Of a DNA stretch of 62,300 nucleotides, positions 32,034 through 47,452 are shown one piece after another. Each line of letters starts with the position of its first letter. Within the stretch, counting starts at the first letter, position 1. The stretch covers positions 1 to 62,300 of the forward strand of contig JAJPIY010000338.1 in assembly GCA_021324515.1 (NCBI GenBank), in the 5' to 3' direction. Source of the DNA: Planctomycetota bacterium. Lineage in GTDB: Bacteria; Planctomycetota; Planctomycetia; Gemmatales; Gemmataceae. A program made the position numbers and the translations under genes. Below the pieces are notes generated by a model. It was not told the DNA's origin and did no database searches. It saw only the letters and a list, made by a program, of their open reading frames with translations.

Positions 32034-36410
<4,377 letters not shown>

Positions 36411-36512
36411 GGTCCGCCCTCCCAAATATGGAACCACCCATTGCACACTCCCCTACGTAGAAGAAGAAAGAGCACATTTTTCTTCTGTGGAAGCGTCGTG
36501 CAATTTGGCGGT

Positions 36513-41969: not shown

Positions 41970-42926
41970 TTACATAGTAACGGGAATGCCCGGCGTCATG
42001 GTGCCTGCAATGGTGATCGATTTCACGTAATGTCCCTTGACGCCGGCCGGCTTGGCGGCGCGGACCTGTTCGACGAAGGCCGTGATATTGGCAGCTAGCT
42101 TGTCGTCGTCGAAGCTGATCTTGCCGACGCCAGCGTGGACGTTGCCGCCCTTGTCGGCGCGATATTCGACTTTGCCCGCCTTCTGCTCGCGCACTGCCTG
42201 GGCCACGTCTTGACCAGCAGTGAGGACAGTGCCGGCCTTGGGGGTCGGCATCAGGCCGCGCGGGCCGAGGATTTTACCGAGGCGGCTGACCTTGCCCATC
42301 ATGTCCTGCGTGGCCAGGGCCACATCGAAATCGAGCCAGCCTTCCTTTTGAATCTTTTCGATCAGCTCGTCGCCGCCGGCGAAGTCCGCGCCCGCTTCCT
42401 TGGCCTTAGCGATGTTATCGCCCTGGCAGAAGACGACGACGCGCTTGACCTTGCCCAGACCGTAGGGCAACGGCACACTGCCGCGGATCATCTGATCACT
42501 CTGTGTCGTATCGATGCCGAGCGACATATGGACCTCAACGGTCTCGTCGAACTTGGCCCGTTTGATCTGCTTCAAGAGAGCAATGGCCTGTTTGAGCGGC
42601 GGGGCGCCAGCCTTGGCGATCTTTTGCCGGTCGTTTTTGAGCTTGTTGAGGAGCTTCTTGCCGCGGCGTGGGGGACGCCCAGGCTGCCGGCCTTTTTTCT
42701 TGACAGGCGCCGCCGGAGCCGCTGTTGTTGCCGCAACGGGTGCCGCAACAGGGGAAGGCGCCACGGGCGGCGCAGGCTCGCCTGTAGCTGCTGGGGCCTT
42801 CTCGCCCTTAGGCGCTTTGGCCTTGGAGGCACGCGGTTTCTTCGCTTCCGCAGCGGGTTGCTCGCTTGCCGGCGCGGCCGGCTTTTCCTTGGCTTCGTCG
42901 GGTTTGTCGGCTTGTTTCTTGGCCAT
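41970..42926 (-). CDS. rplA: Ribosomal protein L1 with a long basic N-terminal extension
   Basis: A 318-residue L1, about 85 residues longer than E. coli L1 (234). The canonical protein starts near residue 88 and has [38 protein letters not shown] and [20 protein letters not shown]. The first ~88 residues are Lys/Ala/Pro-rich with two basic clusters ([31 protein letters not shown]), probably disordered and RNA-binding (inference). The ATG at 42926 has only a weak ribosome-binding site, so a shorter form cannot be excluded, although no better internal start is evident. L1 forms the ribosome stalk that guides E-site tRNA. Confidence 0.96.
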
Positions 42927-43040: not shown

Positions 43041-43505
43041 TTATCCTTCGATGGCCAGTCCCAAACTGCGGGCCGTGCCCTCGATGATGCGCATGGCATG
43101 ATCGACGTCGCGGGCGTTGAGGTCCGGCAGCTTCTTCTGAGCGATGTCGCGGATCTGCGCCGACGACACCTTAAACCCTTTGTACTTGCCGCTGCCCTTG
43201 GCCTTTTCTTCCGCGCTGATAACTTCGCCGCCCTTTTTCTTCTCCACGGGGATGCCGGCTGCTTGCTTGAGCAAGATCGCCGCGGGGGGACTCTTAATGA
43301 CGAACTCGAAGCTGCGGTCGTTGTAAACGGTTATCACCACCGGCACGGTGATGCCGCGCATCTCTTTCGAGCGCTCGTTGAATTGCGACACGAATTGACC
43401 GATGTTCACGCCATGCTGACCGAGCGCGGGACCGACCGGCGGCGCAGGTGTAGCCTGCCCTCCGGGCACCTGCAATTTGATCTGTGCTGTTACCTGTTTG
43501 GCCAC
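43041..43505 (-). CDS. rplK: Ribosomal protein L11
   Basis: A 154-residue protein of the GTPase-associated centre that contacts EF-G and EF-Tu. It has the N-terminal Pro-rich switch ([20 protein letters not shown] then [14 protein letters not shown]) and the rRNA-binding C-terminal domain ([31 protein letters not shown]). The start is GTG with AAAGG about 9 bases upstream. It follows nusG by 50 bases. Confidence 0.98.
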
Positions 43506-43555: not shown

Positions 43556-44359
43556 TCATGCTTGCTCCACTTGCCAGTATTCAAATTCCACCTGCACGGG
43601 TCGGCCGAAAATCGTCAGTTCGACCGAAACGCTGCCCTTGGCCTCGTGCAACTCCTTGACGACGCCTTCCATGCCGGCGAAGGTGCCATCGGTGACCTTG
43701 ACGCGGTCGCCCGGCCCGAAGCGCGGCTTGGTGTAAATGACTTTGCCTTCCTCGGCCTTGGCCTCCGCGCCTTTGATCTGTCCGTGCAGCATCCGCTCGA
43801 TTTCCCGATCCGACATGGGCGGCGGCGGCCGATGCACGGAGCCGCCCACGAAATCGCCGACGCCGGAAGTCTCTCGAAAGAGATAGAGAATTCGGTCGTT
43901 GTATTCCACCTCGACCATTAAATATCCCGGATAGAGCTTACGTTCTTTCTGCACGCGGCGACCGTTGCGCATCTCCGTGACGCGCTCCACGGGGATGACG
44001 ATCTGGCCATAGTACTCTTCCAGCCCCTCGATTTTGACGCGCTTTTCGATGGCTTCCTTGATTGCCTCTTCACGGCCGCTCTGCACCTTGACGACGTACC
44101 AGCGTTTGTTGCTCGGTTTGGGCTGCGGCGTTGGAGACGCCTCCGCTACCGCGGGAGCTTGCTCTGGGAGGCCCTGGGCGTGCGGCGGTTCGGCGGCGGC
44201 TCCGGGTGCGTCCGGCGAACCTGAAGGCGTAATGGCTTCGGGGCCCTCCACCGGGGTTGGCGAGGGCACCGAGGGCGATTCTTGTTGGGCGTCTTCCAGC
44301 GGTGGAGTGGGCGGCGTCACCGCGGGAGTGGGGTCAGGGGTAGATACATTTTCTGTCAT
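43556..44359 (-). CDS. nusG: Transcription elongation factor NusG with an N-terminal Pro/Glu extension
   Basis: A 267-residue NusG, about 86 residues longer than E. coli NusG (181). Residues 1-84 are Pro/Thr/Ala/Glu-rich and likely disordered. The NGN domain starts at KRWYVVKVQSGREEAIKEAI and includes MVEVEYND. After a short linker the KOW domain reads FGPGDRVKVTDGTFAGMEGV. The NGN domain binds RNA polymerase; the KOW domain binds Rho or S10. It lies 37 bases after secE. Confidence 0.97.
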   Translation of the reverse strand: MTENVSTPDPTPAVTPPTPPLEDAQQESPSVPSPTPVEGPEAITPSGSPDAPGAAAEPPHAQGLPEQAPAVAEASPTPQPKPSNKRWYVVKVQSGREEAIKEAIEKRVKIEGLEEYYGQIVIPVERVTEMRNGRRVQKERKLYPGYLMVEVEYNDRILYLFRETSGVGDFVGGSVHRPPPPMSDREIERMLHGQIKGAEAKAEEGKVIYTKPRFGPGDRVKVTDGTFAGMEGVVKELHEAKGSVSVELTIFGRPVQVEFEYWQVEQA

Positions 44360-44396: not shown

Positions 44397-45692
44397 TCAC
44401 CACGGCCGGTCTTCAGGAGGTTGGGCCTCTTCTTTTTGCTCCTCGGACGATATTTTCAAAACGCCGATGGGTGGCCAGCTCAGCACGGATTTCCACATTA
44501 CGTCCATGCCGAACAGGTAGAAAGCCATCAGCACCACAGTGACCAACACAACCATTGTGTCTTGGACCAGCCGTCGCTGGGTGGTCCAGGACACTTTATT
44601 CATCTCCGCCTCGGTGGCGATGAGGAAATCGGCGAAGACCGGCACGTTGACGACGCGCCAGGCCAGCCATATTCCTGCGGCCAGCATCAGCAGCGGCAGC
44701 GTGAATTGCACCGACGGCAACAGCGTCAGGCTGCGGTAGAGCAACGTTCCCGAGGCCGGCTGCGGCGCACTCACTTGCGGCTCGGTTTCGCCTCTTTTCT
44801 TCAGTTCCCGGATCTCTTCGGTGTATTTACTGCGCTCCACGATTTGATTGGTGCGGTAATCCGAAGAACCCGGCTCGATAATTTTCACGAAGCGCTCCGG
44901 ATCGACGCTCTTATTGATCTCCTGAAAGGTAGAGCGATCCAGGACCAGGGCGTGCTCTTGCCAACGTACTTCCCAATCGGGTACGTACTGGGCAAGCACC
45001 TCGGCCGGCACATCTCCCCGCGCTTCCAGGATGACGCGGCCGGTGAAGGGGATGTCGAGTTGCCAATCTTGCGGCCCTCGGCGCAAGGTGCCGTGCGCCA
45101 GCATGGTCCAGATGCCGGAGCCGATCAACACGAGGATGCCGAAGATGGTGCCGCGGCGAACGCGTACGCCTTGGAGCGGCTTGTACGGCTGGATGCTGAA
45201 CCAGCCTTGTTCCTCCAGCGTCACCAGGAAGCGTTCGCTCGCCGGCCGCAGAAACAATCGTGTCCCAAGGACCAACAAGGCCAACCCCACGGCCACAGTG
45301 GCGATAGCTCCAGCGGTAGGACTGAACAGGCCGCGATCATAGCTCCAATATTCGATCCACAAACTGGCCCAACGCGTCAGCAGCAGCACCAAGACAAAAC
45401 CAACGAAACCGAAGAAGATGCCGGCGCGAACGCCGAGGGCCGTCTTCGGCCCCAACAGGCGCGTACCAAACACAAGCAGCCCAACCAGCGCCGCCAGTTG
45501 GATGACAAGGCGGAGCAGGAACGCCGCGCCACTGCCTCCCCACCCCAGGCTTTGCCCCAGGGACGGGATAAGATAGAAGACGATCCCGAACGTGCCCAGC
45601 AGGTAAGCCGCTCCGGCAAGGCTGACGAATGCCATGCGCTCGAATCGACCCTTGGAAGCGACTTCCGGCATGTTTTTGACGGCCACGGCCAT
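44397..45692 (-). CDS. secE: SecE translocase subunit with a large multi-span N-terminal extension
   Basis: A 431-residue protein where SecE is normally 60-127 residues. The SecE core is at the C-terminus: the amphipathic helix FADFLIATEAEMNKVSWTTQ, then RRLVQDTMVVLVTVVLMAFY as its transmembrane helix. Upstream lie about six predicted membrane spans (about 22-43, 58-79, 88-108, 125-147, 180-200, 330-352) and a soluble domain of about 130 residues (200-330) with GRVILEARGDVPAEVLAQYV. Identity rests on the core motif and the canonical position directly before nusG. Function of the extension is unknown. Confidence 0.9.
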   Translation of the reverse strand: MAVAVKNMPEVASKGRFERMAFVSLAGAAYLLGTFGIVFYLIPSLGQSLGWGGSGAAFLLRLVIQLAALVGLLVFGTRLLGPKTALGVRAGIFFGFVGFVLVLLLTRWASLWIEYWSYDRGLFSPTAGAIATVAVGLALLVLGTRLFLRPASERFLVTLEEQGWFSIQPYKPLQGVRVRRGTIFGILVLIGSGIWTMLAHGTLRRGPQDWQLDIPFTGRVILEARGDVPAEVLAQYVPDWEVRWQEHALVLDRSTFQEINKSVDPERFVKIIEPGSSDYRTNQIVERSKYTEEIRELKKRGETEPQVSAPQPASGTLLYRSLTLLPSVQFTLPLLMLAAGIWLAWRVVNVPVFADFLIATEAEMNKVSWTTQRRLVQDTMVVLVTVVLMAFYLFGMDVMWKSVLSWPPIGVLKISSEEQKEEAQPPEDRPW

Positions 45693-45715: not shown

Positions 45716-45770
45716 TTTAGCGGCGCTTCGGGGAAGCGCCCGATCGACGCTTCTCCGAAGCGCCGCTAAA
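45716..45770. repeat. Family C palindrome before secE
   Basis: TTTAGCGGCGCTTCGG... (left arm, 45716-45738) pairs with the arm 45748-45770, with one mismatch, around a GATCGA loop. It directly abuts the 3' end of tRNA-Trp, so it could contribute to tRNA 3' processing or to termination before secE. A half copy is at 17438-17455. Confidence 0.75.
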
Positions 45771-45844
45771 CAGGGGCGGAGCGACTCGAACGCTCAACCG
45801 CTGGTTTTGGAGACCAGTGCTCTACCAAATTGAGCTACACCCCT
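45771..45844 (-). tRNA. tRNA-Trp (CCA)
   Basis: A 74-base cloverleaf. The acceptor AGGGGTG pairs with CGCCCCT and the discriminator is G73. The D-arm is GTAGCTCAATTTGGTAGAGC. The anticodon stem CTGGT/ACCAG encloses CTCCAAA with anticodon CCA. The T-arm contains GTTCGAGTC. No CCA end is encoded. Position between rpmG and secE is the ancestral one. Confidence 0.97.
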
Positions 45845-45939
45845 ATATTCAGAAATCAGAGGTCAGAAAAAACACGGACGCCCAATGCGCACTTTTTCGC
45901 TTGGTCTGCTCCGAACTTCTGGCCTTGGACTTTCGACCT

Positions 45940-46210: not shown

Positions 46211-47452
46211 CTAAGCCAAAATCTTGGTGACGACGCCCGAACCGACAGTACGGCCGCCTTCACGGATGGCGAAGCGCAGGTTTTCCTCCATCGCAATGGG
46301 CGAATCCGGGAGCAGTTCTACCGTCATACTGACGTTGTCGCCCGGCATGCACATCTCGACGCCTGGCGGCAAGGTGACGGTGCCGGTCACGTCGGTGGTA
46401 CGGAAGTAGAACTGCGGGCGGTAGCCGTTGAAGAACGGCGTGTGCCGGCCGCCCTCGTCCTTGCTCAGCACGTACACCTGGGCCTCGAACTTGGTGTGCG
46501 GCGTGATCGAGCCGGGCTTGGCCAATACCTGGCCGCGCTCTACTTCATTGCGCTCGATGCCGCGCAACAGCACGCCGACATTATCGCCGGCCACACCGTA
46601 TTCGAGGGTCTTGTTGAACATTTCCACGCCGGTCACCACGGTCTTTTTCGGCGCCTTCATCAAGCCGATGATTTCAACCTCATCGCCTACTTTGACCTTG
46701 CCGCGTTCGATACGACCGGTGACCACCGTGCCGCGGCCCTTGATCGAGAACACGTCTTCAATAGACATCAAGAACGGCTTGTCCTCGGCGCGCTGCGGCG
46801 TCGGGATATAGGTATCCAGGGCGGCAAACAGATCATCGATGCATTTGCACGCGGCATCGTCCTTACCGGCTGACTGCATGGCTGCCAAAGCGTTGCAGCG
46901 GACGATCGGGATCTCATCGCCGGGGAACTCATACTTGGTCAACAATTCGCGGACTTCCATCTCGACCAATTCGAGCAGCTCGGGATCATCGACGGTGTCC
47001 ACTTTGTTCAGGGCCACGACAATGCGTGGCACACCGACCTGACGGGCCAACAAGATATGCTCGCGGGTCTGCGGCATGGGACCGTCGTTGGCAGCGACGA
47101 CGAGGATGGCGCCGTCCATCTGGGCTGCCCCGGTGATCATGTTCTTAATGTAGTCGGCATGGCCGGGGCAGTCGATGTGGGCATAGTGGCGATTGGGCGT
47201 CTCATATTCGACGTGGGCCACGGCAATAGTCACGGTTTTGAGGTTGTCACGTTCCGTACCACCTTTGGCGATGGCCTTGTATACGTCGGCCGCCGGATCT
47301 TCGACTTTCTTGCCCTTGAAGGTGGTGATCTTGTTCAGGAACGCCGAGCGCAACACCATAGCGGCAGTCAGCGTGGTTTTGCCGTGGTCGATGTGGCCGA
47401 TGGTGCCCACGTTGACGTGCGGCTTGGTTCGCGCAAATACTTCCTTAGCCAT
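46211..47452 (-). CDS. tuf: Elongation factor Tu with a divergent switch I
   Basis: A 413-residue GTPase that delivers aminoacyl-tRNA. G1 ([11 protein letters not shown]), G3 (DCPGHADY) and G4 (NKVD) are intact, as are domains 2 and 3 ([33 protein letters not shown]). Switch I differs: the near-universal RGITI is KTVTI (in [17 protein letters not shown]), preceded by an altered effector-loop segment. The Thr that coordinates magnesium is kept. G5 reads CNAL. Length exceeds E. coli EF-Tu (394) by ~19, mostly in domain 1. GGAGG lies ~6 bases before ATG. Confidence 0.97.

Follow-up and report, generated by a model that had tools for sequence, protein, structure and literature searches.

The window, by which we mean the whole 62,300-nucleotide stretch of planctomycete DNA that was analysed, carries a secE gene in a cluster with the order tuf, an rpmG-like gene, tRNA-Trp, secE, nusG, rplK and rplA, with rpoB and rpoC further on. 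Apart from tRNA-Trp and secE, the genes were named by reading the sequence and the gene order.

46211-47452, on the upstream side of secE in the gene order: tuf
45770..45845, minus strand: tRNA-Trp, upstream of secE, between tuf/rpmG and secE
44397..45692, minus strand: secE, ATG start, 431 aa, seven predicted spans
43556..44359, minus strand: nusG, directly 3′ of secE in the canonical secE-nusG order
43041-43505: rplK, after nusG
41970-42926: rplA, after rplK
32034-36446, minus strand: rpoC, in the same window and gene cluster as secE

The reading frame at 44397..45692 was confirmed as SecE: PF00584 matched residues 356-406 with 45.3 bits (cut-off 22.7), TIGR00964 scored 40.5 (cut-off 27.55), and the single-copy gene lies beside nusG and the L11/L1 genes, the usual context of secE. 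The 431-aa protein is the sole SecE of the 4.9 Mb genome, and no second, normal-size SecE was found elsewhere in it. Its named relatives were proteins of ‘Planctomycetota bacterium isolate Centralia_MAG_199’ (79% identity) and of a ‘Planctomycetia bacterium’ (32%). The genome also encodes SecG, SecDF and a single SecY; as SecY and SecE each occur once, the seven-span protein has to be the SecE of the genome’s only channel, and from the same counts it very likely binds and stabilises SecY and is essential. The tRNA-Trp gene between tuf/rpmG and secE preserves a very old gene order.

We modelled the protein with AlphaFold2 as a single SecE chain together with 69 relatives (pLDDT 90.0, pTM 0.75). 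The model has seven long helices (20-48, 55-80, 88-119, 125-147, 176-199, 328-349 and 372-405), two amphipathic helices (150-161 and 351-366) and, between spans 5 and 6, an alpha/beta domain that covers about residues 206-325. The hallmark of SecE, the cytoplasmic amphipathic helix 351-366 followed by the C-terminal span 372-405, is present. A small size (about 60-150 aa, with one or three spans) is typical of the SecE family and is not what defines homology; with 431 aa and seven spans, the window SecE lies outside that range.

Planctomycete SecEs outside the window’s order, which is probably Gemmatales, mostly have three spans and start with a cytoplasmic YKxxQGRxxR motif, and three-span proteins of about 140-190 aa occur in sister lineages and in other orders of the class. 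The window SecE has a motif of this type, LEEQGWFSIQPYKPLQGVRVRR, ahead of span 5. Since the motif also heads the three-span SecEs, everything after about residue 160, apart from the soluble domain, corresponds to a normal planctomycete SecE. The additions are four N-terminal spans and the soluble domain, and spans 5-7 are ordinary.

45234..45692, minus strand: four added N-terminal helices, residues 1-153, kept order-wide, without a Pfam match
45096..45233, minus strand: cytoplasmic motif LEEQGWFS..YK..QG.RVRR and span 5, residues 154-199, matching the start of the three-span planctomycete SecE (N-terminus and span 1)
44718..45080, minus strand: alpha/beta domain, predicted extracytoplasmic, residues 205-325, between ‘PFTG’ and ‘LLP’, homologous to a two-module segment of RpoC
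44475..44711, minus strand: spans 6 and 7 with the amphipathic clamp helix, residues 328-406, the canonical SecE core

The original prediction of a seven-span SecE with the canonical helix pair at its C-terminus thus agrees with the topology of the AlphaFold2 model and with the PF00584 match, while the soluble domain, which it had put at ~130 residues, comprises about 120. Its count of six extra spans is correct relative to a minimal one-span SecE, but only the four N-terminal spans are extra in comparison with the three-span planctomycete proteins. One family of the same class that appeared to have a long SecE was rejected: its stop-to-stop frames are long, the extra part is sequence upstream of a conserved MGKVKD start, and from that start its SecE has about 170-190 aa and three spans. 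Three SecEs from other families seem to have been enlarged independently: about two additional N-terminal spans stand ahead of a YKxGQGRWVR-type motif.

The loop between spans 5 and 6 measures about 27-50 residues in most SecEs of the order and more than 110 in 21 of 84, its flanks ‘PFTG’ (before) and ‘LLP’ (after) being alike in short-loop and long-loop proteins; only about one in four of the order’s SecEs carries the soluble domain. Residues 205-326 matched no Pfam family, including PDZ or other known periplasmic docking domains, and a sequence search of the PDB with the domain alone returned nothing, whereas profiles and folds gave matches. In a fold search with the whole SecE model, all of the 50 best ranks were, unexpectedly, RNA polymerase beta′. 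A likeness to RpoC was also apparent within the window itself, where BLASTP aligned residues 250-323 of SecE with residues 1308-1379 of RpoC (E = 6e-6), and with the RpoC C-terminus as query against genomes, the only hits besides RpoC were the SecE genes of two genomes of the same genus (E = 1.4e-6 and 3.5e-6). The RpoC segment lies about 12 kb from the SecE domain:

32331..32573, minus strand: RpoC segment homologous to the SecE domain, a duplicated small-left-claw module just before a stretch of 16 residues (letters not shown)

Profile comparison by hhalign of 12 SecE domains with 30 RpoC segments gave 99.0% (E = 2.7e-18) over 84 collinear columns with 29% identity; the true score of 99.3 compares with at most 20.9 in 100 column shuffles and 13.9 for the reversed control, and adjacent RpoC segments lacking the module gave no match. 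When a profile of the SecE domain only was run over 102 genomes, SecE and RpoC were the only matches (own RpoC, E = 9.6e-13), and the reciprocal RpoC profile picked up the domain-bearing SecEs, no short-linker SecE and no SecE of another class. A separate AlphaFold2 model of the domain (pLDDT 84) was superimposed by Foldseek on chain G of 9n9q, a two-module beta′, with a TM score of 0.62 and an rmsd of 2.1 Å over 102 columns, and one-module polymerases matched about half as well. The Foldseek E-values were modest (2e-3), and the 50 best-ranked matches were all RNA polymerase beta′. The SecE soluble domain is therefore homologous to the C-terminal pair of ‘small left claw’ modules of RpoC. The module would be beta′-bD7, the ‘small left claw’ (CATH 3.30.60.280), going by the position given in PMC11515920. 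That the likeness instead reflects convergence on a small common supersecondary motif, as the shortness of the modules (about 45 residues each) and the presence of a similar small-left-claw fold twice in beta′ itself (PMC11515920) might allow, is extremely improbable given that both modules are collinear at this identity and E-value, that shuffled and reversed controls gave nothing and that RpoC and SecE were the only proteins matched in 102 genomes.

We surveyed the large form in 102 genomes of the window’s order, 92 of which were SecE-positive. An open frame of at least 320 aa was found in 90 of these 92, and the two exceptions, with SecE frames of 88 and 165 aa, are probably due to contig ends. 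We also searched 249 genomes of the class with a profile of the four-span bundle (residues 1-153). Of the 68 genomes that belong to the order, 63 gave a match to the SecE gene, and the five non-matching genomes were also without a SecE hit. Outside the order the same profile gave marginal matches alone (E above 4e-4), and no stand-alone gene for the bundle, nor any separate strong match, was found in the class sample. No Pfam family could be assigned to the bundle; isolated weak hits to EMC6 or TRAM_LAG1_CLN8 in single members (E about 0.01) were taken as chance. The reading of an enlarged SecE thus held at the level of the order, throughout which the large form is conserved, but not as a general planctomycete feature in view of the three-span SecEs elsewhere, and the homology with RpoC had gone unnoticed in the original prediction. 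That prediction also proposed that the extension might recruit partners fitted to the planctomycete membrane system.

The start methionine M1 lies in the same column in 83 of 84 relatives and is preceded in most of them by an AGGA-type Shine-Dalgarno sequence, and dN/dS was 0.03-0.42 in every segment (bundle, domain and core) where it could be estimated, indicating purifying selection. Because the start and its Shine-Dalgarno sequence are conserved and all segments are under purifying selection, an internal start as the source of the only product, which the original prediction had named as grounds for refutation, is unlikely. The wider view that a normal-size SecE from such a start is the functional product and the extension a neutral passenger draws on the resemblance of the canonical core alone to working minimal SecEs and on a core that evolves far more slowly than the extension, the bundle included; against order-wide retention, the conserved start, conserved motifs within the extension and dN/dS values well below 1, we regard it as highly improbable.

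One copy of the small-left-claw module occurs in the RpoC of many bacteria, including most other planctomycetes, whereas two tandem copies are found in the window RpoC, in other Planctomycetia, in a few other planctomycete families and in the polymerases of PDB entries 8dkc and 9n9p. Mapped on a tree of the SecE membrane parts, the presence of the domain requires two changes, most plausibly about one gain and one loss, and the four-span bundle, which is order-wide, is older than the domain. Most SecEs of the order lack the domain, and at least one loss on the tree is probable, so the core function of SecE does not depend on it. On the module tree the SecE domains form one group apart from RpoC. 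In hhalign they scored 102 against the RpoC of this order and 62 against that of other planctomycetes, from 30 and 4 rows, respectively. An AU test gave p = 0.36 for the alternative, so that the SecE branch is not firmly placed inside this order’s RpoC; other attachments are admitted, and phylogenetic proof of the exact donor was not obtained.

Copying from rpoC is nevertheless the simplest explanation, because the module is old in beta′, rpoC lies in the same cluster and no third gene with the module was found; the transfer probably ran from rpoC to secE. A third source, such as a mobile or lost gene that gave the module pair to SecE and RpoC separately, would be in line with a tree that does not root the SecE branch firmly within this order’s RpoC, but we consider it unlikely, as the module is old and near-universal in beta′ yet confined, among SecEs, to part of one family, and as the 102 genomes hold no third gene with the module while rpoC is in the same cluster.

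In four SecEs from several genera the outer domain is enlarged to 200-300 residues, with additional sequence separating the flank from the RpoC-like part, and in four others with loops of 120-135 residues the RpoC-like profile match is weak or absent, possibly owing to strongly diverged copies or a different insertion. In another planctomycete class, the equivalent loop (spans 1-2) of one SecE contains a PDZ-like domain, whose match to PDZ_Tricorn (E = 4.9e-5) falls slightly short of the curated cut-off, and five further planctomycete SecEs have insertions of 80-230 residues of no named family in the same outer loop. The outer loop of SecE looks like a hotspot for domain capture, and the unrelated domains between the same two spans in other planctomycete classes support it as a site of repeated insertion.

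In E. coli SecE, the segment before the penultimate span lies outside, and the clamp helix and the last span fix the orientation. Since the orientation is fixed in this way, the soluble domain is very probably extracytoplasmic; the four added spans are an even number, so that the orientation of SecE is kept. We consider it probable that this SecE, which belongs to the only channel, grew in two steps and displays on the outside a segment that was captured from rpoC in its own cluster. In the first step, the ancestor of the order would have gained a four-helix membrane bundle in front of a SecE of the usual planctomycete three-span type. SecY would still be clamped by the last span and the amphipathic helix at the C-terminus, and the four helices beside the channel may act as a built-in accessory subunit. 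That the bundle packs beside SecY is somewhat more likely than the opposite, SecE having been modelled as a single chain; because the bundle evolves faster than the SecE core and no known family resembles it, any role given to it is a guess. In the second step, later and within one family, an in-frame copy of the tandem small-left-claw modules of rpoC would have entered the loop that joins spans 5 and 6, which would place an RNA polymerase module near the channel exit, on the outer side of the membrane. There it might offer a small, non-enzymatic surface on which a periplasmic factor or the emerging chain could dock, a role that we propose as a tentative guess.

Replacement of SecG by the extra spans was ruled out, since 90 of the order’s 102 genomes have SecG (70 of the 71 good ones), as was a loss of SecDF as the reason for the outer domain, SecDF occurring in 31 of 31 genomes tested. 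A weightier alternative gives the main importance to the bundle, which might, for example, be a lipid- or insertase-like partner next to the channel, and regards the soluble domain as a minor insertion that came late. The bundle is universal in the order and the domain patchy, and several unrelated loop insertions exist in other planctomycete SecEs; purifying selection, however, acts on the domain itself (dN/dS 0.05-0.3 between close pairs), and its sequence signature is retained even in distant members, which makes this alternative doubtful, although it is the strongest of those considered. We therefore lean towards the reading that an rpoC module was copied into the nearby secE and works outside as a functional part of a seven-span SecE, giving a translocon with a fused accessory subunit.

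This organization shares with the three-span SecE of E. coli and most planctomycetes (PF00584/TIGR00964) the C-terminal amphipathic helix and span, the preceding span pair, the single copy and the tuf-trnW-secE-nusG order, as well as, with other planctomycetes, the YKxxQGRxxR motif; it differs in the four additional N-terminal spans and, in this lineage, in a domain of 120 residues that interrupts the stretch from span 5 to span 6. With the duplicated beta′-bD7 small left claw of Planctomycetia and Bacteroidota-type polymerases, the domain shares the two-module order, 29% profile identity and the fold, but the SecE copy resides in a membrane protein and is predicted to lie outside, whereas the polymerase copy is cytosolic. 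Polymerase insertional domains are also known from other genes of the same cluster, namely HABAS in NusG and BEAN in archaeal uL10, and genomic neighbourhood has been suggested to matter (PMC11515920). Those hosts, however, are cytosolic transcription or translation proteins, and the transfers were judged ancient in that study, in which SecE is absent; here, a different module entered a translocon subunit within one family. SecDF, YidC and PpiD/YfgM resemble the enlarged SecE by analogy only, as extra membrane or extracytoplasmic parts near SecYEG; no sequence relation was detected, the extras are fused into SecE and SecDF is also present.

Few parts of the universal protein-conducting channel are as conserved and as minimal as SecE. 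The seven-span SecE with a polymerase-related domain is a new form of this protein, and the open-access literature searched yielded no paper that describes an enlarged SecE in planctomycetes or a polymerase domain within SecE. Its order-wide occurrence indicates that the clamp can be rebuilt as an accessory-bearing subunit, and such a natural SecE fusion may mark the sites at which extra factors sit next to SecY. The RpoC-like domain represents a phylogenetically datable move of a module within the secE-nusG-rpl-rpoBC cluster, of a kind previously argued for ancient events (PMC11515920), and a rare recent reuse of a part of a transcription enzyme in a secretion channel. If this is true, RNA polymerase modules can move recently to genes of the same cluster and even into a membrane machine, and with such a module outside the cytoplasm, its role could be examined apart from transcription.
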